DNA of 39,973 bases from an uncultured Eisenbergiella sp. (GTDB lineage Bacteria; Bacillota; Clostridia; Lachnospirales; Lachnospiraceae): NCBI GenBank assembly GCA_947626995.1, contig CANQUI010000018.1:1-39973 (forward strand). Direction: 5' to 3'. This document shows, piece after piece, positions 26,563 to 39,528 of the stretch (the stretch's first letter is position 1; every line of letters begins with the position of its first letter). The translations under genes and the position numbers were made by a program. The notes under the pieces were generated by a model. The model made no database searches and had not been told where the DNA came from. It worked only from the letters and a program-made list of their open reading frames with translations.

Positions 26563-26625
26563 ACATATCGGAGCAGGGGAGCGCTGTTATCAGCAGTCAA
26601 TTTATAAAAAAAGAAATAAAACAGG

Positions 26626-26659
26626 ACCCGCCGAAGGATCAAATTTTCGGTGGGTTTTT
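26626..26659 (+). terminator. Rho-independent terminator of module 1
   Basis: A 10-bp stem (ACCCGCCGAA at 26626-26635 with TTCGGTGGGT at 26646-26655, one G-U pair) is followed by TTTT G. It lies 64 bp after the GT4 stop. A related hairpin occurs at 37462 in the right boundary element. Confidence 0.85.
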
Positions 26660-26730
26660 GTGAATTTTGATGAAAATTCATCCAATTATCTAAATTATTC
26701 GCATAATAATATCAAAAGGCTGAAAATACA

Positions 26731-26773
26731 ACAAAACATTTCGTTGAGTTGCATACTCAACGAAATGTTTTGT
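26731..26773. repeat. Perfect 43-bp palindrome (19-bp arms, 5-nt loop)
   Basis: The arms ACAAAACATTTCGTTGAGT (26731-26749) and its exact complement (26755-26773) surround TGCAT. No T tract follows, so it is not a typical terminator. It contains the left terminal repeat of the 514-bp segment. A decayed version (12 of 14 pairs) lies at 37573-37605 directly upstream of the second AP2 gene. It may be an operator or a transposition end. Confidence 0.9.
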
Positions 26774-27252
26774 TATTCTAGAATGAAATTATATACAAAA
26801 ATAACTTCCATGTCAATATGTTGGATTTCGTTTATCCAATATCCGCAGGCCGCACTCTGGCCGACTTTTATTTTTTTCTGTAAAAACAGTTTTCATTTTC
26901 CCTAATTTGTCATTAAAAGCTGCATGAATGATACATTTCTGCGCATGAAAAGCATCTCCATCTTTGCTTTTCAAAGACCGGCCAGGCTTTTTATGCAAGC
27001 GGTATTTGTATATTTTCAATGTAAAGCAGTCAAATAAGCAGTCAAAAAATCTGCTGCCCCCAGGGACTTCCGATTCCATTAATCTGAATCATGAGAAAGC
27101 GCCGCATTGTCGAATCAGGACTAAAAAAGTCCATCAGGCACACAGTCGGATAATTTAGTCAAATTTAGTCAAAAAGAGTTTATAACCCCATGATATCAAC
27201 AAAAAACCATATTACCACCCCGCTTTTTCATTGATTATGCAACTCAACGAAA
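26739..27252. mobile_element. 514-bp MITE-like segment with perfect 17-bp terminal inverted repeats
   Basis: Left end TTTCGTTGAGTTGCATA (26739-26755) and right end TATGCAACTCAACGAAA (27236-27252) are exact inverted copies. The interior has no credible gene. No clear target-site duplication is visible. The left copy of the element retains the right end (473-489, one mismatch); at 37576-37602 a left end and right end lie together with no interior. This pattern fits insertion or loss of the interior between the ends. Confidence 0.65.
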
Positions 27253-27383
27253 AAATCTAAAAAAGAAACAGTCGTCTTTGACCATTTATGCACAGAAACG
27301 GAGAGTTTCTTAAGAACATCAACGGATGCGGACTCTGGGATAATACCGGCCGTGTGTCCTGAGATGAGGAGAAGGTGAAGGTT

Positions 27384-28079
27384 ATGAATGAGGTTTTGCG
27401 CCAGGAAAAGAAATACCTCCTGTCCCTGGAAGCTGCCGGACGGCTGGCCGGACAGTTTTCCCGTGTCATTGCCCGGGACAGTCACAATGGATCCGGCGGT
27501 TATTCCGTCCGGTCGCTGTATTTTGACAGCATTGAGGACGGAGACTATCAGGATAAAGTGGATGGTCTGGAAATACGGCGAAAAATACGGCTCCGATGTT
27601 ATGATCCCGGCGATTCATTTGCGGTTCTCGAAATGAAGCAGAAGGAAGGAGCGTATCAGAGAAAACGCTCCCTGCGCCTCCCCCGCGCCGATGCGATCGG
27701 TCTGACAGCGGGAGATTATAGAGTGCTTCTTCGATATAATGAACCTTTTGCACTGGAATGCTATGGGCTGATGACCGCATTGCCGTATCGCCCGAAAGCG
27801 ATTGTGGAATATCGCCGCCGTGCCTTTGTGGCAAAAGAGAACAATCTTCGAATTACCTTTGACAGCCGGATCACAGCCACCGAGGCGAGCTTCGATCTGT
27901 TTTCTCCTGGGCTGCTGCAGTATCCTGTACTCGATCCATTTCATGTGATTCTGGAAGTAAAGTATAACGGATTCCTTTTGAGCTATATCAAAAATACGAT
28001 TAATTGCGCGGACCGGTCGGAGCTTTCCATCAGTAAATATTGTCTGGCGCGGAGCGTCGGACTTCATGATTCGTCGTAA
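27384..28079 (+). CDS. VTC-domain (polyphosphate polymerase-like) protein
   Basis: The 231-residue protein matches the VTC domain, whose eukaryotic members make polyphosphate from ATP at a membrane. Typical elements are RQEKKYLLS near the start, YSVRSLYFDSIEDGDYQDKVDGLEIRRKIRLRCY with several basic residues lining the tunnel, VLEMKQKEGAYQRKRSLRL, AIVEYRRRAFV and the C-terminal VILEVKYNGFLLSYIK and SISKYCLA. In bacteria such genes often sit beside DUF4956 and CotH genes, as here. Whether they make polyphosphate is not known. GAGGAGAAGG precedes ATG 27384; GTG 27375 is the alternative start. It opens the second operon. Confidence 0.88.
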   Translation: MNEVLRQEKKYLLSLEAAGRLAGQFSRVIARDSHNGSGGYSVRSLYFDSIEDGDYQDKVDGLEIRRKIRLRCYDPGDSFAVLEMKQKEGAYQRKRSLRLPRADAIGLTAGDYRVLLRYNEPFALECYGLMTALPYRPKAIVEYRRRAFVAKENNLRITFDSRITATEASFDLFSPGLLQYPVLDPFHVILEVKYNGFLLSYIKNTINCADRSELSISKYCLARSVGLHDSS

Positions 28080-28102
28080 CCTCTGTCATTAAAAAAATAA
28101 AA

Positions 28103-28121
28103 GCTGATTCAGTAAATCAGC
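28103..28121 (+). promoter_or_regulatory. Small intercistronic stem-loop
   Basis: A perfect 7-bp stem (GCTGATT/AATCAGC, loop CAGTA) lies in the 64-bp gap before the DUF4956 gene, 10 nt before its AGGAGG site. It has no T tract, so it may affect mRNA stability or processing more than termination. Confidence 0.4.
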
Positions 28122-28143
28122 GGATTTCAAGGAGGAACAGTCT

Positions 28144-28821
28144 ATGAGGAACAAACTGCTGGAGCTGCTGGAGCCGTCCGGGAACCTGGAGCTGGAAGCG
28201 ATTATGATGCGTATGATTTCCGCATCGATCATAGCCTGCGTGATTTACTTTTCCTACTGGTGTTCTCATGCAGGAGGCATTTACAGCAAAAAGTTTAACA
28301 TTACACTGGTGACGATGACGCTGGTGACGACCATGGTCATGATTGTTATCGGAAACAACCTAGCCTTGTCCCTGGGTATGGTAGGCGCGTTGTCGATTAT
28401 CCGGTTCCGGACAGCTATTAAGGATTCCCGGGATGCGGTTTACATTTTCTGGGCCCTTGTGGTGGGTATTTGCTGCGGGGCGGGAGATTATCAGGTTGCG
28501 TCTGTGGGCACCATATTTGTAATGGCTGCTCTGCTGGTGTTTGGAAGGATTAAAAACGATAACCGGGTACTGCTGGTGATTCGAACATCCCGTTCTAACG
28601 AAGAACGTCTGGAGGCACTGCTGTTCCAGCGCTTTGCGCGGAAAGCATCTTTGCGTGTAAAAAACTCCACGGAAAACAGCGTAGAGTTTATTTACGAGGT
28701 GAGCCGCCGTATTCTGGATCGGGACAACCGGAATGCGCAAAGCCTTACGGATGCCGTATATTCCCTGGGAAATATTGAATATTTTAATGTGGTTGCACAA
28801 AACGACGACATAGGAAGCTGA
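28144..28821 (+). CDS. DUF4956 membrane protein
   Basis: The 225-residue protein has about four hydrophobic segments in its first 140 residues (SIIACVIYFSYW, NITLVTMTLVTTMVMIVIG, the segment after RDAVYIFWALVVGICCGAG, and TIFVMAALLVFG) and the DUF4956 core LSLGMVGALSIIRFRTAIKDSRDAVYIFW. A cytoplasmic domain of about 80 residues follows. It is known mainly from its link to VTC and CotH genes; its function is unknown. A strong AAGGAGGAACAG site precedes the start. It may form a membrane platform or channel with the VTC protein, which is inference. Confidence 0.9.
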   Translation: MRNKLLELLEPSGNLELEAIMMRMISASIIACVIYFSYWCSHAGGIYSKKFNITLVTMTLVTTMVMIVIGNNLALSLGMVGALSIIRFRTAIKDSRDAVYIFWALVVGICCGAGDYQVASVGTIFVMAALLVFGRIKNDNRVLLVIRTSRSNEERLEALLFQRFARKASLRVKNSTENSVEFIYEVSRRILDRDNRNAQSLTDAVYSLGNIEYFNVVAQNDDIGS

Positions 28822-28833
28822 CGGTGAACGGTT

Positions 28834-30312
28834 ATGAGATACAGATTTTGTTGCATGACAGCGATCCTTCTTCTTCTGATTACGATACCGGTTCTGGCCG
28901 CATGGAACGTGAAAAAGGAGGAGGTTCGGTATCATCAGCATCTTGAGGAGCCGGGCTATACACCCTGTACGGAGCACAGAGATGATGTGTTCTGCACCCA
29001 TCTGCCCATTGTGCTGGTTAATACAGACGGACGGGAGATTCCGGGGGCGCTGACAGGGGAGACCGACCGGTTTGGCGAAGCTCTTTATACACAAACGGCA
29101 GACGGAATGGATTATCTTAAGGGATCTGTAACTGTGATTGATAACGCGGAGGTCAACAATCATCTTTCGGATGCTCCGGATTTTACGATGGAAAGTCTGA
29201 TCAGAATCCGCGGACATGCTTCGAGGAAGTTTGAAAAAAGTCCTTATCTGCTGAAATTCGTGGATGATAAAGGAATGGACAGGGAAATGGAAGTTATGGG
29301 AATGGATGCCCATCATGAATGGGCGCTTTACGGCCCATATCTTGATAAATCTCTGGTCCGGAATTATATGTGCTGCAATCTTGCGGGAAGTATCATGGAT
29401 TACGCTCCCAATGTCCGCTGGTGCGAGGTGTTTCTGAATGGAGAATATCGCGGACTGTACCTTATGATGGAAACCATTACAAACGGGAAGACCGGCCGCC
29501 TTAATCTGAACGAAGACTATAAGGGAACGGAAATGGAAGGGTATCTTCTCAGAATTGACCGGCCCACAGAGACGGACCTGGAGACCACGAGGGATATCTA
29601 TTCTTTTACAGAGAGGACTAACATGCCTCTGGAAGATGTGGCTGTTCGGTATCCGGGAAAAAGCAGGCTCACACCGGAGCTGGCACATTCCATTGAAATG
29701 GATTTTGCCCGATTTGAAAAAGCGCTGTATTCTTATGACTACGATACCGAACTCTATGGGTACTGGAACTGGGTGGATGTTGATAATTTTGCAGATTACT
29801 ACGTCATCAATGAATTTACGCGCAATGTAGACGCAGGAATATTCTCAACCTACCTGTATAAAGAAGTGGGAGAAAAATATAAGCTTTGCGTATGGGATTT
29901 CAATAATGCGTTTGACAATTATATTGAGAGGGAATTTGATGAGACAGGTCTGACGATATATGAAAAAGTTTTTTTTAACATGATGACGAGAGATGAGGAT
30001 TTTTGCGAAAAAATTATTGACAGATATCATGAACTCAGAGAATCCTATCTTAGCGACGAGTATCTGTTTGATTATATTGATGAAACCATACAGTGGCTGG
30101 GACCGGCAGCAGAGCGGAATTGTCTTCGCTGGGCTTCTGCATATACCGACTATGCTCCGCTGACACCGGCCAGACGGAATGTACACAGCCTGGATGAGGC
30201 GATTGCTCAGCTGAAGACATGGATACATCGGCGGGGAGAATGGCTGGACAAGAATATTGATGCGCTTCGCGCGGTTGCTCATCCGTCCCGGAACAAGGAA
30301 TATAATCACTGA
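28834..30312 (+). CDS. CotH-family secreted kinase-like protein
   Basis: The 492-residue protein has an N-terminal signal or anchor (about residues 5-22) and a CotH domain: SLIRIRGHASRKFEKSPYLLKF, HHEWALYGPYLDKSLVRNYM, EVFLNGEYRGLYLMMETI, GYLLRIDR and KLCVWDFNNAFDNY with the catalytic-type Asp. Spore CotH is an atypical protein kinase that phosphorylates coat proteins; secreted CotH proteins outside spores are known from genomes only. Here it lies between a DUF4956 gene and a glycosidase-like gene, so it may phosphorylate the machinery or the product outside the membrane. The start has only a weak site. Confidence 0.88.
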   Translation: MRYRFCCMTAILLLLITIPVLAAWNVKKEEVRYHQHLEEPGYTPCTEHRDDVFCTHLPIVLVNTDGREIPGALTGETDRFGEALYTQTADGMDYLKGSVTVIDNAEVNNHLSDAPDFTMESLIRIRGHASRKFEKSPYLLKFVDDKGMDREMEVMGMDAHHEWALYGPYLDKSLVRNYMCCNLAGSIMDYAPNVRWCEVFLNGEYRGLYLMMETITNGKTGRLNLNEDYKGTEMEGYLLRIDRPTETDLETTRDIYSFTERTNMPLEDVAVRYPGKSRLTPELAHSIEMDFARFEKALYSYDYDTELYGYWNWVDVDNFADYYVINEFTRNVDAGIFSTYLYKEVGEKYKLCVWDFNNAFDNYIEREFDETGLTIYEKVFFNMMTRDEDFCEKIIDRYHELRESYLSDEYLFDYIDETIQWLGPAAERNCLRWASAYTDYAPLTPARRNVHSLDEAIAQLKTWIHRRGEWLDKNIDALRAVAHPSRNKEYNH

Positions 30313-30340
30313 TCAGATACAGGAACAGGGAAGTCTACAG

Positions 30341-32656
30341 GTGAAAAAATTTATTATTGCTGTCAGCATCCTTGTGGCGCTGGCATTTACAGGTTACAAC
30401 ATTTATTATCGGGCAGGTATTTATATTCAGATAGGGAAACCGGAAGCCACGGACGTCTGGATCCGGACTGACGGACAGGAATTCAGGATCCGGCAGGCAG
30501 ACGGTTCATTTGTCCCTTTTGAAATACGCGGTGTAGATTTGGGAAGCGGATATCCCGGCGAATGGGCAGTGGATTATGCCATCGATAAAGAAACCTATCT
30601 TCGCTGGTTTGAATATATTCAGGAGCTGGGTGCCAATACGATCCGCATTTATACCATTCATCACTCGGAGTTTTATGATGCGTTCTATGAATATAACACA
30701 AAAAGAGAAGATGCCGGAGAGGAACCGCTGTATCTGATCAACGGAGTCTGGGTGAATGATTACGTGTATAATTCTCACAACAGCGCTTATGATGAAGATT
30801 TTCTGGATACATTCTTAAACGACTGTCGGACGCTGGTGGACGTGCTTCATGGTGAGAAAAAGCTTTCTCTTGGATATCAGGGAGTGGGCAGCGGAACCTA
30901 CCGTCACGATGTATCCCGCTGGGTGCTGGGATATATTCTCGGTGTGGAATGGGAAAGCAGTCTGGTTGCCTACACGAATCAGGTCAATGAAGACCGGAAA
31001 AGCTTTTCAGGGAAGTATCTCCATACGTCAGAGGATGCCTCGCCCTTTGAGGCCATGCTGGCACAGGTCGGCGATAAGCTGATCGAGTACGAGACAAAGA
31101 AATATCATCAGCAGAGACTGCTGGCATTTTCAAACTGGCCGAATACAGATCCGTTTTCTTATCCGCTGGTGGTTGTTTATTCCCGTTCAAAGTGTACCTG
31201 CGTGGATGTGGAAAAGATTCTGCCCGGTGAGGAATATGCTTCCGGGATGTTTGCCTCCTACCACGTTTATCCTTATTTTCCGGATTATCTGGATATCATT
31301 CTTGACGGGAATGCATTGTCTGAGGAAGAAATTCTTCTTCATTATGGAATACTGCAAAAGGAAGTGCTGGAATACCGCATGTCTCTTCTGAATGCGCCGT
31401 CTGTTCTGGACTACGTCGGCGAAGAGGATTATTACGACGAACAAAATCGTCGGAATACCTATCGCGCCTATCTGACGGCACTTGTAAATTATCATACAAT
31501 TCCGGTTGTGATCTCAGAATACGGCGTTACAACGGGACGCGGAATGGCGCGGAAGGACGAAAATACAGGAAGAAATCAGGGTTACATGACGGAAGAGGAG
31601 CAGGGTGCGGCTCTGATTGACTGTTATAAGGATATCCAGGCTGCGGGCTGCGCAGGATCCTGTCTGTTTTCATGGCATGATGAATGGTTCAAACGAACGT
31701 GGAATACACTCTATGCCATTGACCGGGACAAGAATGCGTATTGGAGCGACTATCAGACTAATGAACAGTTCTTCGGCCTTCTGACCTTCGATCCTGGCCG
31801 GGAGAAGAGCATCTGTTATGTGGACGGAAACGTGAAGGAATGGACGAAAGAGGATGAGGTTCTGTCCTGCGGAGAGGCTCAGCTGTCCATGAAGTATGAT
31901 GAGAAGTTCCTGTATTTTCTTGTGAAACAATCGGATTTCCATCCGGAGGAGGATATCCTTTATATTCCCATTGACACGAATCCGAAGACGGGAAGTACCT
32001 ATGCTGAAGGATATGATGTTTCCTTTGAGAATATGGCGGATTTTCTTCTGGTCATTGACGGCCGGGAGAACAGCCGGCTGCTGGTACAGGAACGGTATGA
32101 GGTATTGATGTCTACTTATCATAAAGAATATTACGGGATTAATCCTTATTATGAGGAAAATACTCCGAAACTTCACAGCCCTGTTTTTAAAAAGATATAT
32201 ATGGCGCTGAATACCGTTCAGCTGCTGCCGCAGCTGTCGGAGGAAGAGAATATTCCTACAGGAGTGTCCTATGAAACGGGAAAGCTGCGCTATGGAAATG
32301 CAAATCCGGATGCGCCGGACTTTGATTCCCTTGCGGATTTTATTTTCTCGGGAGATTATGTGGAAATCCGTATTCCCTGGCAGCTCCTGAACTTTTCTAA
32401 TCCCTCCGAAATGATGATCCACGACGACTATTACGAATGCTATGGAATTGAAGATCTGAAAATTGACAAGCTGTACGTCGGAATTGCTTCCAGTGACAAC
32501 ACGGATCACCGTGTTCCGATGACCGCATTTAGACTGGAAGGCTGGGGTAAACATCCCACTTTTCATGAACGTCTGAAGCGTTCTTACTTTATGCTGCAGG
32601 AATACTGGCGTGAACTGGATCGGACGGTATCCCTGGTGAGGGAGGCATCGCCATGA
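30341..32656 (+). CDS. Membrane-anchored glycosidase-like protein with C-terminal CBM9/DOMON-like domain
   Basis: The 771-residue protein has an N-terminal anchor (about residues 3-20), then a TIM-barrel region like clan GH-A enzymes. GANTIRIYTIHHSEFY is the strand 3 type motif, YILGVEWESSL may hold the acid/base Glu, and VVISEYGVTTGRG would hold the nucleophile Glu; GSCLFSWHDEWFKRTW follows as the usual strand 8 aromatic motif. Residues about 500-770 look like a CBM9/DOMON beta-sandwich (CYVDGNVKEWTKED, KYDEKFLYFLVKQ, YIPIDTNPKTGS). It may trim or reshape the polymer made by the GT2 synthase downstream. GTG 30341 gives the anchor at the very start; upstream frame overlaps the CotH gene. The exact GH family cannot be given. 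Confidence 0.75.
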   Translation: MKKFIIAVSILVALAFTGYNIYYRAGIYIQIGKPEATDVWIRTDGQEFRIRQADGSFVPFEIRGVDLGSGYPGEWAVDYAIDKETYLRWFEYIQELGANTIRIYTIHHSEFYDAFYEYNTKREDAGEEPLYLINGVWVNDYVYNSHNSAYDEDFLDTFLNDCRTLVDVLHGEKKLSLGYQGVGSGTYRHDVSRWVLGYILGVEWESSLVAYTNQVNEDRKSFSGKYLHTSEDASPFEAMLAQVGDKLIEYETKKYHQQRLLAFSNWPNTDPFSYPLVVVYSRSKCTCVDVEKILPGEEYASGMFASYHVYPYFPDYLDIILDGNALSEEEILLHYGILQKEVLEYRMSLLNAPSVLDYVGEEDYYDEQNRRNTYRAYLTALVNYHTIPVVISEYGVTTGRGMARKDENTGRNQGYMTEEEQGAALIDCYKDIQAAGCAGSCLFSWHDEWFKRTWNTLYAIDRDKNAYWSDYQTNEQFFGLLTFDPGREKSICYVDGNVKEWTKEDEVLSCGEAQLSMKYDEKFLYFLVKQSDFHPEEDILYIPIDTNPKTGSTYAEGYDVSFENMADFLLVIDGRENSRLLVQERYEVLMSTYHKEYYGINPYYEENTPKLHSPVFKKIYMALNTVQLLPQLSEEENIPTGVSYETGKLRYGNANPDAPDFDSLADFIFSGDYVEIRIPWQLLNFSNPSEMMIHDDYYECYGIEDLKIDKLYVGIASSDNTDHRVPMTAFRLEGWGKHPTFHERLKRSYFMLQEYWRELDRTVSLVREASP

Positions 32657-33783
32657 GCGGAGGCGAAACAATTCTCTACGCATATGGCGCGGTATGCGTT
32701 TGTATGATTTTGTTCAACGTTGTGTACAACCTGATACGAAATCGGCGCGACCGCCGCATCGGCCAGCGAAGCGCCAGGCTGCAGGAAGACGCTGTCAGAC
32801 AGCTGGATCGTCTGGAAGATGGAGGCTGGTTTGAGAATGGTTATATGAACCGGCTGATAAAAAAGCTGAAAAAAGTGGACTGGCTCATTGCTTTTGATCG
32901 CATGCTGGACGATCCGTCCGTTCAGGAGCATCCTTCTTTTGAGCTTTATGAGAGAACTGTGCTGGAGCGTATCCTTGTCCTTGCGGATGAGTACAGCCGC
33001 CGGCAGGATATGGAGGCGGCCTATTATGCCTTTTTTCTTTCTGGCTGCAGCGTGCTCCGCCAGATGGATACCACGGCGGTACAGGAGTGCCTGACTGGCT
33101 ATATGAAGCTCCCTAATGTCTATTGCCGGGTAAACGCTCTGCAGGCACTGTACAGCTTCGGCAGTCGGGAATCCATTGTCGGAGCGCTGGAAACACTGGA
33201 CCGTATGGAAGGAACTGTCCATGAGAAGATCATCACTGACGGTCTGCTTTCTTATTGGGGCAGCCATGAGGAGCTGATCCAGCTTTTCTGGGAACGATAC
33301 GATCATTTTTCAGACAGACTGAAGCATCCGATACTGAACTATATCCGCTATCGGACCGGCAGCTGTAAGGACAGGATGTTTGAAATCCTGGCGGATGAGA
33401 AAGAGGATAAGGAACTGCGGCTTGCGGCAATGCGTTATTTTGGCAAATATCCCTGGAAACCTGCCCATGAGCTCCTCTGTACGTTTGTCAGGGAAAACGA
33501 TCCTGTGGACTGGGAGTATTCCGCTGTTGCCGCTGCCTGTCTGGCAGCTTATCCCGGCGGGAAGACGGTTGACGTGCTGATGGATGCTTTGTACAGCACC
33601 AACTGGTATGTCCGGAATAATGCCTCCGCCAGTCTGGATGCCTTTCACCTGGATTATCGGGAACTGGGCAGGGTAGTAGACGGACGGGACCGGTATGCGC
33701 GAGAAATGATGATGTACCGTCTGGATGCCAGAGCGCTGGACGAGGAAAAGAAAAAAACAGGACAGGGGGAGGCAGTGTCATGA
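32653..33783 (+). CDS. Membrane-anchored HEAT-repeat protein
   Basis: The 376-residue protein has one N-terminal membrane segment (about residues 7-27), a basic stretch (RNRRDRR), then paired helices in HEAT-like units, clearest at 125-160 (PNVYCRVNALQALYSFGSRESIVGAL), 255-285 (ELRLAAMRYFGKYPWKPAHELL) and 305-335 (AAACLAAYPGGKTVDVLMDALYSTNWYVRNNASASLDAF). These repeats serve as protein scaffolds. It overlaps both neighbours by ATGA, which suggests fixed stoichiometry with the glycosidase-like protein and the GT2 synthase. It likely holds the synthase complex together. Confidence 0.82.
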   Translation: MSGGETILYAYGAVCVCMILFNVVYNLIRNRRDRRIGQRSARLQEDAVRQLDRLEDGGWFENGYMNRLIKKLKKVDWLIAFDRMLDDPSVQEHPSFELYERTVLERILVLADEYSRRQDMEAAYYAFFLSGCSVLRQMDTTAVQECLTGYMKLPNVYCRVNALQALYSFGSRESIVGALETLDRMEGTVHEKIITDGLLSYWGSHEELIQLFWERYDHFSDRLKHPILNYIRYRTGSCKDRMFEILADEKEDKELRLAAMRYFGKYPWKPAHELLCTFVRENDPVDWEYSAVAAACLAAYPGGKTVDVLMDALYSTNWYVRNNASASLDAFHLDYRELGRVVDGRDRYAREMMMYRLDARALDEEKKKTGQGEAVS

Positions 33784-35195
33784 GTCCTGGTGTGAGAGAT
33801 GCAATTCAGTTTTTTTATAATGGCATCGGTGTATTTTTTGTGGTCTATATGTTTGTGTATGCCACCTTTTTATTTCTGGCGGTAACGGTGGGTTCCTCCA
33901 CACTGTTCGGTACCCGCCGGCGAAACGCGCTGAAAAATGAGCTGCAGAGCGGCTATTACATACCTGTTTCGATTCTGATTCCTGCGCACAATGAATCAAC
34001 CACCATTGTGTCGACGGTTCAGTCTCTGCTGCTGCTGGATTACAAGCTGTATGAGATTATTATTGTGGATGATGGATCCACGGACGAAACATCCCGGATT
34101 CTCATCGATACCTTTCATCTGCGGCACGTCAGCCGGCCGATTCAGCGGAAGCTCAGGTGCCAGCCGGCGGAGGCGGTGTTTGAGAGCAGGGCCTGCAAGG
34201 TTCCCATTACTCTGATTCGCAAAAAGAACGGCGGGAAATCGGATGCGCTGAATATGGGGATCAATGCCTCAAGGTACCCCTATTTTATGTGCATGGATGC
34301 AGATTCTGTACTGCAGCGGGATTCTCTGGAGATGCTGGTGCGGCCTGTGCTGGAGAATGACAATGTAGTGGCTGTGGGCGGTTCGGTGCGTCCATGCAAC
34401 GGAACGGAAATTCGCGATGGACTGGTGAAGGAATACCATTTGCCGAATCGTATTCTTCCCTGTATGCAGGTACTGGAGTATGACCGCTCGTTTCTGGCTG
34501 CACGGATTCTGTTTGATAAATTCAATGGAACGATCATAATCTCCGGCGCTTTCGGTCTCTTTAAGAAAAGTGTTGTAGTGGATGCAGGAGGGTATGACAC
34601 GGGTACGATGGGAGAGGACATGGAACTGGTGGTAAAGCTTCACGTCTTCTGCCGGGAACACGGGATTCCCTACCGTATCCGGTTTTCCACCGATGCGGTC
34701 TGCTGGACGCAGGCTCCGGAGCATCTGCGGGACCTTGTCAAACAGAGACGACGCTGGCATATCGGCCTTTTTCAAAGTCTCATGCAGCACAGAAATATTC
34801 TTATGAATCCCAAATACGGCCTGGTCAGCTTTATCTCTTATCTGTATTTTCTGCTGTATGAGCTGCTTTCCCCGTACATTGAGATTTTCGGCGTATTTAC
34901 CATTGGATTTGCAGCGGTGGTGGATTTTTTGAACTTTCCGTTCTGGGTGATCTATCTGGGAATTTATGCCGTTTTTTCGGCGATTTTGTCCCTGACGGCG
35001 TTTTTCGCACGGGTACATACGGCGGATCTCCGGCTGAGTTTCCGTGATGCGGTAATAGCGATTCTGCTGTGCCTGCTGGAGGTTTCGTGCCTGAGATTTA
35101 TCCTTGCATGGGTGCGTGGGGCAGCACTGATCGGGTACAGGCGAAAAAAAATGACGTGGGGAGAGATCCAGCGAAAGCAGATCAATTTTCAATAA
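33780..35195 (+). CDS. Membrane-bound GT2 polysaccharide synthase (PgaC/BcsA-like)
   Basis: The 471-residue processive-type glycosyltransferase has an N-terminal membrane segment (about 10-38), the catalytic GT-A domain and three to four C-terminal membrane segments. Processive motifs are all present: IIIVDDGSTDET (UDP site), KKNGGKSDALNMG, FMCMDADSVL (D-x-D), TMGEDMELVVKL (catalytic ED) and KQRRRWHIG (Q-x-x-RW). Such synthases make and extrude a homopolymer or simple polymer, as in cellulose, PNAG or hyaluronan. No PilZ domain is visible, so any cyclic-di-GMP effect would need a partner. It overlaps the HEAT gene by 4 bp. Confidence 0.92.
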   Translation: MSPGVRDAIQFFYNGIGVFFVVYMFVYATFLFLAVTVGSSTLFGTRRRNALKNELQSGYYIPVSILIPAHNESTTIVSTVQSLLLLDYKLYEIIIVDDGSTDETSRILIDTFHLRHVSRPIQRKLRCQPAEAVFESRACKVPITLIRKKNGGKSDALNMGINASRYPYFMCMDADSVLQRDSLEMLVRPVLENDNVVAVGGSVRPCNGTEIRDGLVKEYHLPNRILPCMQVLEYDRSFLAARILFDKFNGTIIISGAFGLFKKSVVVDAGGYDTGTMGEDMELVVKLHVFCREHGIPYRIRFSTDAVCWTQAPEHLRDLVKQRRRWHIGLFQSLMQHRNILMNPKYGLVSFISYLYFLLYELLSPYIEIFGVFTIGFAAVVDFLNFPFWVIYLGIYAVFSAILSLTAFFARVHTADLRLSFRDAVIAILLCLLEVSCLRFILAWVRGAALIGYRRKKMTWGEIQRKQINFQ

Positions 35196-35219
35196 AACCC
35201 GAGAAAGGGGGAACTGCTT

Positions 35220-37028
35220 GTGGATGGCGCGATTATTTACGTTGCCGGGAATCCGGACGCCTATCCGGTGGAATATTATGACAGAGAAACAGAGTCTTAT
35301 CAGGGACTGATTCCCGAGCTGCTCCGCCGCTTCGGCCAGGAGAACGGCTGTGATATCCGATATTTTCAGCCGGACCAGGGCGATCAGAGAAAAGAACTGG
35401 CTTCTTTTCACCAGGTGGATCTGATTTCAGGCTGTACGGAATCGGAACAGTATGAACATCTGGAGGGTGCGGAAATCCTTGTCCTGCCTTTTGTGAAACA
35501 GGGGGAAGAAAACGGTTACCGGATCCTGATTACGGAGGCAGCGCCGTCGGGGCTGGCGGAGAAACTGAGAACCAGTCTCGGAGGTGTGAGCCAGGAGGAA
35601 AAAACAGGATTTCTGCTCTCTGCCGCGGAACGGGAGGAACCGGTTAATCTCGCCCGTTTCCATAATTTTCTCATTGGGGCTCTTCTGGCGGTTCTGGTAC
35701 TTCTCACTGCGCTGATTCTGATAGCGCGGCGTTACCGCCGCCGGCTTTCGGCCGCAGAGGAGGACCGAGAGACAGATGCCCTGACAGGTATCGGAAACCG
35801 GGAATATCTTCTGCGGTACTTTAACCAGGTGATCAATGACGGAAATAAAATTCTGTACTGTGTGCTCTGTTTTCACATTGATACGGAGCGAATCGCTCGT
35901 GACGCCGGCCGGGAACAGACTGACAGATTTCTTCGGCATGTGGCGATGGTGCTGAGAGATTACGCGGCGGACATGGATATTCTGGCACGCATATCGGACG
36001 GCGGATTTGTGCTTTTGCGTCTGAGTGTGGATGCGGAGGAGGAGCGCCGGTGGCTGAATGCCGTTCTGAATCGGCTGTCCAGTGTCCCTGTCCTGAAGGA
36101 TGCTCCGGAGGCAAGGTACTTCGCTGTAGGCAGTTATCAAATTCAAAGGGAAGATCATGATATTAACGAGGTGATTTTCGACGCGATGGAATGTGCCCGG
36201 GCGGCTTATCTGGCCGGAGAAGAATATGGGATATGTACGGACGAGGTGCTGCAGAGGCTTCACGATGAACGGATACTGCAGGCAGATATCCAGCATGGAT
36301 TGGAATATGGAGAATTTATTCTGTACCTGCAGTTTTATATTGATCCGGCGACGGGAAGCGCCGTGGGAGCAGAGGCTCTTTCCCGGTGGAATCATCCGTC
36401 ACGGGGCCTTCTTCTTCCCGGAGAATTTGTCCCCCTGATGGAGCGGGAGCGGCTTGTGAGCGGACTGGATGAATGCTGTCTTGAAAATGTATGCAGATTT
36501 CTGGAGGAGCTGAAAAGAAACGGAGAGAAGACCTTTTTCGTTTCCTGTAACATCTCCAATGAAACAGCCGGCGAGGAGAGATTTCCGGAAAAATGCAGGG
36601 AAATCCTGAACCGATATGATTTCCCTCGGGAACGGCTGATTTTCGAGTTGAAAGGCAACGCTTCCTCCGGGATAATCCGCAATATCAAATGTCTGCGTGA
36701 GATGGGCGTCCGTCTGGCCATGGATGATTTTGGGGAGGGTTTCGGATCCTTCGAACAGCTTCAGGACTGGCAGCCGGATTTGCTTAAAATTGACCGTTGC
36801 CTGGTAGATGGAATCGGGACGAAAACAGGCGAAAGCGTTCTGCGCGGTATGATTGGAGTTTGTCGTGAGCTGGGAATTTCTGTGGTGGCGGAGGGTGTTG
36901 AAACGATGGAGCAGGCGGTTTTTCTGAGTAATCATCAGTGCGATCTGATGCTGGGTTACCGTTTCGGACATCCCATGCCAGAGCAGGAGGTCAGAAGGCA
37001 GATCCTTTCCCAAAAAAGAAAAGAGTAA
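35220..37028 (+). CDS. Sensor-type protein: partial solute-binding domain, degenerate GGDEF, EAL
   Basis: Residues 1-140 resemble a shortened family-3 solute-binding domain (AYPVEYYDRETESYQGLIPELLRRF). One membrane segment follows (about 147-168), then a GGDEF-like domain with DALTGIGNREYL but ISDGGFVLL in place of GGDEF, so cyclase activity is unlikely. The EAL domain has E385-A386-L387, CNIS, D502-D503 in DDFGEGFGS, LKID and E558 in AEGVE; the E-x-T-E site reads ELKG and the final QG reads LG, so phosphodiesterase activity is uncertain. It may sense an outside ligand and bind or degrade cyclic-di-GMP to control the synthase. The start is GTG 35220 with AGGGGGA; no signal peptide precedes the outer domain, which is odd. 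Confidence 0.85.
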   Translation: MDGAIIYVAGNPDAYPVEYYDRETESYQGLIPELLRRFGQENGCDIRYFQPDQGDQRKELASFHQVDLISGCTESEQYEHLEGAEILVLPFVKQGEENGYRILITEAAPSGLAEKLRTSLGGVSQEEKTGFLLSAAEREEPVNLARFHNFLIGALLAVLVLLTALILIARRYRRRLSAAEEDRETDALTGIGNREYLLRYFNQVINDGNKILYCVLCFHIDTERIARDAGREQTDRFLRHVAMVLRDYAADMDILARISDGGFVLLRLSVDAEEERRWLNAVLNRLSSVPVLKDAPEARYFAVGSYQIQREDHDINEVIFDAMECARAAYLAGEEYGICTDEVLQRLHDERILQADIQHGLEYGEFILYLQFYIDPATGSAVGAEALSRWNHPSRGLLLPGEFVPLMERERLVSGLDECCLENVCRFLEELKRNGEKTFFVSCNISNETAGEERFPEKCREILNRYDFPRERLIFELKGNASSGIIRNIKCLREMGVRLAMDDFGEGFGSFEQLQDWQPDLLKIDRCLVDGIGTKTGESVLRGMIGVCRELGISVVAEGVETMEQAVFLSNHQCDLMLGYRFGHPMPEQEVRRQILSQKRKE

Positions 37029-37378: not shown

Positions 37379-37399
37379 TTACAAAGGAGTTTCCCGGCG

Positions 37400-37605
37400 C
37401 AGGGAAGCGCTGTTATTATCAGCAGTCAATTTATAAAAAAGTCAAGAAGAATAAAACAGGACCCACCGATGGATCAAAACCTCGGTGGGCTATTGTGCAC
37501 TTTGATGGAAAAACATGTTTATTTATCTGCAATTTTCATATAATAGCATTAAAAAACTGGAAATAATTCAAAATATTTCGTTGAGTTATTTACTCTGCGA
37601 AATAT
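37400..37605 (+). repeat. Polysaccharide boundary element, right copy (interior missing)
   Basis: This stretch is homologous to 26574-26773: AAGCGCTGTTAT, ATCAGCAGTCAATTTATAAA, AATAAAACAGGACCC, the hairpin and a decayed palindrome. The roughly 480-bp interior that follows in the middle copy is absent. The palindrome's right arm continues straight into sequence collinear with 485 onward upstream of the first AP2 gene. Confidence 0.78.
37462..37494 (+). terminator. Decayed terminator hairpin in the right boundary element
   Basis: CCCACCGA (37462-37469) pairs perfectly with TCGGTGGG (37482-37489), as in the terminator at 26626, but the T tract is reduced to CTATT. Compensating changes between the two copies (CCGCCGAA/TTCGGTGG against CCACCGA/TCGGTGG) keep the stem, which supports a retained function. 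Confidence 0.5.
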
Positions 37606-37608: not shown

Positions 37609-37634
37609 AAACCAGATGTGGGGGATGCGCGGGG

Positions 37635-38582
37635 ATGATAAAAAGCAAAGCAGATATGACCGGCCTGCGATTCGGCAGACTAAGTGTGACAGAGGATTCC
37701 GGCCAGAGGAAGCAAGGATGTGTTCTATGGCGGTGCAGATGCGACTGCGGAGGAGAGATCCTGCTTATAAGAAATCAGCTGATCAGCGGAGAGGTTATCA
37801 ACTGTGGATGCGCTGCAAAGGAAAGCGAACTAGATACTGCGGCGGAGGACCTTACCGGCCGGCAGTTCGGAGAACTGACTGTGCTCCGTCGTGTGGAAAA
37901 TGACAGAAACAGCAAAGCGCGCTGGCTGTGCCGGTGCTCCTGCGGAAGACAGCGGGAAGTGTACGCCTTTCATTTAAAGAACGGCAATACCCGGAGCTGC
38001 GGCTGTAAAAAGTACAGTATTTCCTATAATAAAAGGAACCTTGCCGGAAAGCGTTTCGGGCGGCTGACTGCGCTGTATCCCGCGGATTCGGAAAAACGCT
38101 TTCAGAAGGGCATATGGCGCTGCAGATGCGATTGCGGAAATGAGGTGGATGTTTTTGCAGGAAGCCTCCTTACAGGAGCGACGCAGAGCTGCGGCTGTCT
38201 GAATAATGAGCAGCGGCACAGGATGCACGAGCATATGCATTATCAGGACGACACCTGTGTGGAAAGACTTGTAAGAGCACAGAAGGAAAGCGGGAAAAAC
38301 AAAGCGGGATTCCGCGGTCTTTACCGCACGAAAAGCGACAGTTACCATGTGATGATCACATTCCGCAAGGTACATTACAATCTGGGATATTTCAGAAATT
38401 TCGATGTGGCCGTGCAGGCCCGTCTCCGGGCGGAGGATATTCTCCACAGAGGATATCTGGACGCCTTTGAGAAATACCGCGAGAAGGCCCGGACGGATTC
38501 CGCGTGGGCGGAAGAAAATCCTTTTTTCTATAATGTGATACGTATGAATGGAGAGTTCCATGTGGAGACCAACATTTCATAA
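37635..38582 (+). CDS. Zinc-ribbon repeat / AP2-domain DNA-binding protein, copy 2
   Basis: This 315-residue twin of the gene at 522 has the same three zinc-ribbon units and AP2 domain with no indels. About 20 residues differ, with several in the linker after the first unit (EVINCGCAAKESELDTAAED against KVTDCGCAAEEKRTDAAAEE); every zinc-binding Cys is kept, which argues that both copies are under selection. The ribosome site here is GGGGG where copy 1 has GGAGG, so it may be translated less well. A longer in-frame start at 37515 lies across the palindrome and is rejected. DNA identity with copy 1 ends one base after the stop codon. Confidence 0.85.
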   Translation: MIKSKADMTGLRFGRLSVTEDSGQRKQGCVLWRCRCDCGGEILLIRNQLISGEVINCGCAAKESELDTAAEDLTGRQFGELTVLRRVENDRNSKARWLCRCSCGRQREVYAFHLKNGNTRSCGCKKYSISYNKRNLAGKRFGRLTALYPADSEKRFQKGIWRCRCDCGNEVDVFAGSLLTGATQSCGCLNNEQRHRMHEHMHYQDDTCVERLVRAQKESGKNKAGFRGLYRTKSDSYHVMITFRKVHYNLGYFRNFDVAVQARLRAEDILHRGYLDAFEKYREKARTDSAWAEENPFFYNVIRMNGEFHVETNIS

Positions 38583-38713: not shown

Positions 38714-39528
38714 ATGGCGAATGCAAAAAACATCGTTCGGGTGGGGATGCCCTTTGACCGTAATCTGGGCGACCAGGCAATATGTGAAATGACGAGACAT
38801 TCTGTACGGCAGTTTTTTGCGGTGAGGGACATCCCGCTGAAAATTAGGACCGTGGATATCGGCAGCAGCAAAAACGGCCGTATTTATACGGATCCCCGAC
38901 TGTATAAATATTATAAAAAGTTTCGGAAAAAAATTTTTCAGATTGGGTACGGAATACCGTATTCTCTGTCCGCCCGGGTGGAAGCGGACTGCAGGCGGAC
39001 GATAGGTCCTTCCACGGACGCGGTCATTGTTGTGGGAGGCGCAATGCTCAAATTCCGTCAGGCGCCGTTTTATCACGAGACTCTGGAGATTGTTCTCCGT
39101 CACGCTCCGTTAAGATTTTCAGTAACGGCGCTCTGGATGACCAGAAGGCTGCGGACAGGCTGCTGGAATATCTGCATCTGAACAGAAAGGATAAGGAGCA
39201 TGCGTGTCCGCGGCCGGAGAATGTGAGAAGCCTGGCGGCTGTCATATCCGCCTGTCAGGCCGTTGTGGTAACGAGACTTCATTCCAGCATCATTGCATAT
39301 GCTTACGGGGTGTCTTTTGTTGGACTCGTGTGGAATCAGAAACAACGCTTTTTTGGCGCGAGCATCGGCTGTCCCGACAGGTTTTTGAGTATTCCGGAAT
39401 TTGATGCGGAGCGGATTGCGGAGAAGCTGCTGCGCGCAATGGAATCCGGATATCCGGATGCAAAAACTCAAGCGTATAAGGAAAGTAACGCGCGGGAGCT
39501 GGAAAAATTTCTTTCTCAGTATGTCTGA
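38714..39528 (+). pseudogene. Broken polysaccharide pyruvyl transferase gene
   Basis: The first part (38714 to about 39111) gives the family's N-terminus: NLGDQAICEMTRHSVRQF, then DAVIVVGGAMLKFRQAPFY. The frame then shifts; from 39112 another frame continues the family with KIFSNGALDDQKAADRLLEYL, then VTRLHSSIIAYAYGVSFVGLVWNQK and FLSQYV at the C-terminus. Between the parts about 100 residues of the usual 350-400 are missing, so a deletion joined the halves out of frame. The intact enzyme adds a pyruvate ketal to a polymer sugar from phosphoenolpyruvate. A good ribosome site (AAGGAAGAGG) remains, which suggests fairly recent loss. Confidence 0.85.

Follow-up and report, generated by a model that had tools for sequence, protein, structure and literature searches.

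A likely synthase-dependent exopolysaccharide operon carrying a VTC, DUF4956, and CotH gene trio in an uncultured Eisenbergiella sp. and other Clostridia

What might a cell build with a polysaccharide synthase that is encoded together with a VTC-domain protein, a DUF4956 membrane protein, and a CotH-family kinase-like protein? This question is raised by a cluster of genes on contig CANQUI010000018.1 from an uncultured Eisenbergiella sp. (assembly GCA_947626995.1); we refer to the whole analyzed stretch of 39,973 nucleotides (nt) as the window. Based on gene identity, synteny, the position of a riboswitch, active-site residues, covariation among the genes, and the occurrence of the same VTC-DUF4956-CotH trio beside the genes for Pel polysaccharide too, we consider it likely that the cluster is a synthase-dependent exopolysaccharide operon. 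It would be of a known general kind, controlled by cyclic di-GMP (c-di-GMP) in much of its family, and unusual in its trio. The result is a candidate surface-polymer operon that is widespread in gut Clostridia, as yet unnamed, and often preceded by a c-di-GMP riboswitch of its own; it also provides a testable function for the published necrotic-enteritis locus NELoc-2. A phosphate step in the operon is plausible, and this putative role of phosphate is what we find most interesting about it.

Gene content and layout

An open reading frame (ORF) and Pfam check of the window gave seven co-directional, closely packed genes at 27384-37028 on the + strand. The seven genes reported in a preliminary description of this DNA are therefore real, with coordinates that hold and, for all but the fourth, names that match Pfam. 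The same description had several genes overlapping at ATGA, which is correct for GH/HEAT (at 32653) and HEAT/GT2 (at 33780) but not for the other four of the six junctions, which are gaps of 64, 12, 28, and 24 nt. The genes and their leader are the following:

26563..27383, + strand, leader upstream of VTC (821 nt; without a riboswitch match)
27384..28079, + strand, VTC-domain protein of the polyphosphate-polymerase fold family (231 amino acids [aa], ATG at 27384; Pfam VTC 7e-37)
28144..28821, + strand, DUF4956 membrane protein with an MgtC-like region (225 aa; Pfam DUF4956 8e-15)
28834..30312, + strand, CotH-family kinase-like protein with an N-terminal hydrophobic segment (492 aa; Pfam CotH 5e-57)
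30341..32656, + strand, membrane-anchored glycoside-hydrolase-like protein, here GH (about 771 aa; GTG start inferred; weak Glyco_hydro_72)
32653..33783, + strand, HEAT-repeat protein (376 aa; Pfam HEAT_2 9e-07; N-terminal hydrophobic segment 6-24)
33780..35195, + strand, processive-type GT2 polysaccharide synthase (471 aa; Pfam GT2 7.5e-28)
35220..37028, + strand, SBP3-like / degenerate GGDEF / EAL protein (602 aa; Pfam EAL 5e-57)

The most likely start codon of the GH gene is the GTG at 30341. A simple scan of the protein sequences called one hydrophobic segment near the N-terminus of each of CotH, GH, and HEAT, three in DUF4956, and four in GT2, and found none in the VTC protein.

A conserved six-gene order

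We analyzed the best 80 of at least 561 relatives confirmed in a scan of named genomes, counting genes by six-frame profile searches; at least two of these 80 named loci (L028 and L031) are apparently the same contigs as G031 and G003 of the other genome set. Most are from Clostridia. All six of VTC, DUF4956, CotH, GH, HEAT, and GT2 are present in 68 of the 80, and 67 of these 68 have them in that order, while the remaining one lists VTC and DUF4956 in reversed order by frame start. Eleven of the 12 loci without all six genes stop at a contig end; the other is L041, where VTC and DUF4956 are missing and CotH is represented by a short piece only. The gene order is not due to chance, and the possibility, named in the preliminary description as grounds for rejection, that the genes do not co-occur beyond this genome did not come true.

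Other samples show both the full set and a smaller one. GH is encoded in 9 of 98 relatives' genomes (the window's own genome counted), and VTC, DUF4956, and CotH lie alongside in seven of the eight foreign neighborhoods. A plasmid record of Planococcus maritimus, annotated independently, lists in order a polyphosphate polymerase, DUF4956, CotH, a hypothetical protein, HEAT, and a glycosyltransferase. In the stretches examined from genomes G084 and G259, GH-HEAT-GT2 occurs without the trio, as it also does in those from Paenibacillus cellulosilyticus and Deinococcus radiophilus. Thus, GH-HEAT-GT2 looks like the core of the operon, and the trio like an addition. In an even class sample of 245 genomes, the matches listed include the GH profile in 19 (some weak or in pieces), VTC in 127, and PelG in 12, of which 10 are above its cut-off.

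The synthase and the glycosidase-like protein

Processive membrane GT2 enzymes are marked by D, DxD, ED, and QxxRW motifs. In the operon GT2, D173/D175, E279-D280, and QxxRW at 322-326 are invariant in all eight aligned rows. These motifs, together with the conserved synteny, support the earlier view that this is a synthase-dependent glycan operon. Pfam Chitin_synth_2 matches GT2 at 1.7e-08 (34 bits versus a cut-off of 27), more weakly than the GT2-family models do, and a PDB search matched solved chitin synthases at 6e-07, with PgaC and BcsA matching better.

Three known systems were considered and rejected. The best NCBIfam match of GT2 is the synthase of poly-N-acetylglucosamine (PNAG), PgaC_IcaA (TIGR03937), but it scores 150.6 bits, far below the cut-off of 422.3, and Pfam finds no deacetylase among the seven operon proteins. 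Cellulose synthase (BcsA/CelA) is further off, with 45.8 versus 699.1 bits for TIGR03030. Membership in Pel was dismissed on the basis that there is no PelF or PelG at the locus and that the only PelG match in the genome is at contig C6:17918-19282. That PelG has no VTC match nearby.

The only Pfam match of the GH protein, Glyco_hydro_72, is below its cut-off (1.4e-04), and the protein matches the GH2-type structure 9fz9 at E=0.004. Two candidate catalytic glutamates, numbered from base 30335, are conserved: E395 in all 81 rows and E205 in 80 of them. In line with the earlier description of a membrane-anchored glycosidase-like protein, the gene product has a membrane anchor and these two candidate glutamates, but it passes no GH family cut-off.

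VTC, DUF4956, and CotH in the operon

Searches of the PDB with the VTC or CotH sequence by itself were of little use, whereas profiles did better. Searching with a profile built from 21 VTCs of the operon brought up yeast Vtc4 (3g3q; E=4.5e-4), and the profile alignment places K10, R69, R71, K85, R145, and R156 opposite lysine or arginine residues of Vtc4, which we take to be functional tunnel residues in yeast. The two proteins share a domain family and these basic residues, but the operon VTC, whose activity is predicted, has a separate membrane partner in DUF4956. The latter also matches MgtC, below the Pfam cut-off (7.5e-06). A profile of 20 operon CotHs finds Bacillus cereus CotH (5jd9; E=2.6e-6); D333 and D355, invariant in the 20 rows, lie opposite two 5jd9 aspartates in a second segment of the match, which is weak (1.8 bits), and aspartates of this type are presumably catalytic.

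Covariation of distances across 66 loci ties DUF4956 to the synthase side and CotH to GH. DUF4956, HEAT, and GT2 covary with r of 0.86-0.88, and DUF4956 tracks both GT2 and HEAT (0.86 each) although their genes are not adjacent; its correlations with VTC, GH, and CotH are 0.73, 0.73, and 0.63. CotH distances follow those of GH (r=0.82), for which joint exchange of the adjacent pair may be another reading. For six chosen differences, the bootstrap intervals do not include zero.

Probable cyclic di-GMP control

We built a c-di-GMP-I riboswitch covariance model from 22 copies whose loci are also among those searched, and it gave 40 matches in 1.45 Mb (the window plus 80 loci). Of these, 38 are found on the strand of VTC no more than 400 nt upstream of it, which accounts for 38 of the 69 loci having VTC; this zone takes up 1.1% of the two-strand space of the loci. 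Three of the 38 score weakly (29-36 bits), and the two remaining matches, in L066 and L072, are located elsewhere. With Rfam, a c-di-GMP-I riboswitch passes the gathering threshold upstream of VTC in one of four named loci scanned (L029) and in 10 of 11 further ones, which were picked partly by a prior pattern match; it is found at 5 of 19 operons in the G-labelled sampled genomes.

Genes for GGDEF and EAL proteins accompany the operon as well. In 67 of the 80 named loci, the operon is followed on the same strand by a match to the GGDEF/EAL model, and a pattern search found the canonical GGDEF motif in none of the 67, some of which are fragments. In 17 loci, a GGDEF protein is encoded just upstream of the operon, with the motif intact in all 17. 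Between GT2 and the EAL gene, 27 of the 67 loci have a gap of 300-750 nt; the two small genes read there (L017 and L018) encode coiled coils, which we take to resemble DivIVA at the N-terminus.

The window differs from much of this family. It has no Rfam gathering match, its leader scores 2 bits at best with our model, and no riboswitch was found in the draft genome (95% complete; 111 of 266 first-look candidates scored). Its GGDEF/EAL protein matches GGDEF at 2e-11 and, weakly, SBP_bac_3 at 0.007 (Pfam), the GGDEF motif reads SDGGF, and two of nine tested EAL positions are changed (G at 479, L at 578). These nine positions are intact in all 31 untruncated loci with a riboswitch; among loci whose upstream side was judged to lack a riboswitch, the set is intact in 13 and degenerate in 8, the window being one of the latter (Fisher p=0.0003). 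Counting eight loci whose upstream side is unjudgeable gives 31/0 versus 20/9 (p=0.0007); both tests ignore relatedness and exclude 4 of 64 rows as truncated. Intact c-di-GMP control in the window was rejected on these grounds, and, judging from sequence, the c-di-GMP arm looks decayed there. The c-di-GMP control previously proposed for this locus therefore fits much of the family, with its riboswitch, downstream EAL protein, and sometimes upstream GGDEF protein, but not the window itself.

The trio beside Pel and elsewhere

Accessory genes of Gram-positive Pel loci include cotH, a polyphosphate polymerase, DUF4956, and DUF4832 (PMC7112168, PMC12345266). According to the available text of these papers, such loci share with the operon the trio and a membrane-anchored GH, plus a cyclase/phosphodiesterase gene in Bifidobacteria, but their synthase is PelF/PelG instead of GT2, and their VTCs fall in another clade (below). 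In Streptococcus intermedius, deleting SIR_1592 (an MgtC-type membrane protein) or SIR_1594 (CotH-like) is reported to cut aggregation by more than half in one medium (PMC12345266).

To place the trio beyond the operon, we used 38 VTC neighborhoods, hand-picked and non-random among the matches listed, of which four are PelG-linked and 34 are not. DUF4956 is present in 37 of the 38. The 29 neighboring surface proteins scanned comprise 21 CotH, four of them PelG-linked, and eight Cthe_2159 proteins. These loci and our operon place the VTC-DUF4956-CotH group outside Pel, in contrast to PMC12345266, whose available text states that the authors' analyses failed to find this synteny outside the Pel locus. 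Two further VTC-DUF4956 pairs occur in the window's genome on contigs C27 and C38 (L025 9037-10477, L026 6788-9825); one adjoins a peptidyl-tRNA hydrolase and the other a Cthe_2159 carbohydrate-binding protein.

In a VTC tree, 77 operon rows form one group (support 97/70, not starred), and the four Pel VTCs belong to another clade, which is starred and nested with trios near neither PelG nor GH-HEAT-GT2. These groupings suggest that the couplings to the GT2 synthase and to Pel arose separately. It thus looks as if the trio was coupled independently to each, subject to a bootstrap that has not settled, long branches, and a midpoint root. With one trio coupled to two unrelated synthases, it becomes directly testable whether matrix building includes a shared step of phosphate handling.

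A matching gene order published for Clostridium perfringens

The 11-gene locus NELoc-2 (CP4_0458-CP4_0468; PMC2879425, re-listed in PMC11677781) resembles the operon by published gene order and lengths. As given in PMC2879425, it shares the order VTC (230 aa), membrane protein (222 aa), CotH (497 aa), hypothetical protein (685 aa), HEAT (377 aa), and glycosyltransferase (466 aa). It differs in starting with sigma-factor and conserved-hypothetical genes, in having a second VTC pair and a resolvase, and in listing no GGDEF-EAL protein among its 11 genes. The second gene type is annotated tubulin/FtsZ in that source and is probably a DUF4956 gene. The label chitin synthase that PMC2879425 gives to the glycosyltransferase may agree with our Chitin_synth_2 match above cut-off.

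The preliminary description knew of no described function for the complete set. With regard to function, this fits the literature that we found, but NELoc-2 is a published matching set (PMC2879425), and the trio has been published as a Pel accessory group (PMC7112168, PMC12345266).

A model for the operon and points against it

In our model, where we infer every activity, the identity of the polymer, the phosphate step, and the direction of the switch, GT2 would polymerize a beta-linked hexose or hexosamine chain, possibly chitin-like or PNAG-like, and extrude it via its own membrane part, with HEAT as a membrane-tethered scaffold. The membrane-anchored GH would trim or release the chain outside the cell. 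DUF4956 in the membrane and VTC in the cytoplasm would act at the synthase side, where they would tune output; the most likely means is that they make a phosphate polymer, or a phosphate equivalent, and pass it on. CotH would act outside with GH, most likely phosphorylating the glycan or GH itself. In much of the family, c-di-GMP would govern the operon through the upstream riboswitch, the downstream EAL protein, and sometimes the upstream GGDEF protein.

Several results weigh against this reading. GT2 stays below cut-off for each of the 25 NCBIfam models listed, and distant relatives of GH lose one glutamate each (G in L022, H in L024). VTC covaries less strongly with the synthase (r about 0.73; partial correlation 0.13-0.20), and DUF4956 tracks GH as well as it tracks VTC (0.73 each). 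There is no riboswitch match upstream of VTC in 31 of 69 VTC loci (one with only 40 nt of upstream sequence), none at 14 of 19 operons in the G-labelled genomes in a first look that scored part of the candidates, and none beside VTC at the four Pel-linked sites. The trio is also found at places that have neither Pel nor the GH-HEAT-GT2 core next to it. The window's genome has PPK1, which rules out VTC as its only candidate polyphosphate maker; among 19 operon genomes, PPK1 is found in nine and has no match in 10, and PPK2 is above cut-off in four. Our literature search, broad for NELoc-2, found no experiment on the operon and no description of it as an exopolysaccharide system.

The published S. 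intermedius mutants add to these points. In the available text of PMC12345266, deletion of SIR_1592 gives more Pel and deletion of SIR_1594 less, the trio is dispensable for Pel, the mutant in the VTC-like SIR_1593 still aggregates, with no change reported, and the GH mutant SIR_1591 still aggregates and is without phenotype. From these phenotypes, beside Pel the trio modulates the polymer rather than enabling it.

Alternative explanations

The best-surviving alternative, which we regard as possible but doubtful, is that the trio makes polyphosphate and handles it as a separate product of export or stress that merely travels with the synthase; the glycan would then be unphosphorylated and CotH would modify another surface protein. 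This agrees with the 34 VTC loci near neither PelG nor this operon, where CotH lies beside VTC in 17 and a Cthe_2159 carbohydrate-binding protein takes its place in eight, and with the regulatory genes that accompany many loci (a response-regulator cluster in 22 of 40 and a histidine-kinase cluster in 18 of 40, one member of each confirmed by Pfam). S. intermedius, moreover, is reported to make Pel without any single trio gene (PMC12345266). However, the same report has two trio-gene deletions altering the Pel level, DUF4956 covaries better with GT2 and HEAT than with VTC or CotH, and the two different synthases each go with a VTC lineage of their own, all of which counts against this alternative.

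A more specific reading seems unlikely to us: VTC-DUF4956 would be a polyphosphate-making and exporting unit docked on GT2-HEAT, CotH would use polyphosphate instead of ATP to phosphorylate the glycan or GH outside the cell, and Pel and the GT2 synthase would each have recruited this line separately.

We find it quite improbable that the operon makes a spore-coat or exosporium glycan with CotH in a spore role. CotH is a known spore-coat kinase (PMC7821199), and Clostridia supply most loci, but the riboswitch and c-di-GMP proteins would point to vegetative life, and a CotH-like trio gene is reported to be active in a non-sporulating streptococcus (PMC12345266). A role in plasmid segregation through tubulin-like proteins, suggested for NELoc-2 from the annotation and discussion in PMC2879425, is hardly credible for the operon, since the second protein of the operon in the window has three hydrophobic segments and matches DUF4956 and MgtC rather than tubulin.

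Neighboring genes and repeats

Upstream of the operon, 5806-26559 holds a separate glycan cluster of the Wzy type, whose genes code for MBOAT, glycosyltransferases, a flippase, a pair each of GDSL proteins and CDP-glycerol glycerophosphotransferases, and two coiled-coil proteins, of which one matches DivIVA. Downstream, 37629-38579 encodes a protein containing repeats with Cys residues, for which Pfam gives no match at 1e-5, and two ORFs in different frames at 38714-39528, the first without a Pfam match at 0.001, might be one broken gene. The operon is flanked by direct repeats of about 200 nt that are 77% identical (26569-26766 and 37395-37603) and contain terminator-like hairpins. A third copy lies on contig C26 of the same genome (223-425), and the flanking repeats may be a shared leader element or an insertion scar.

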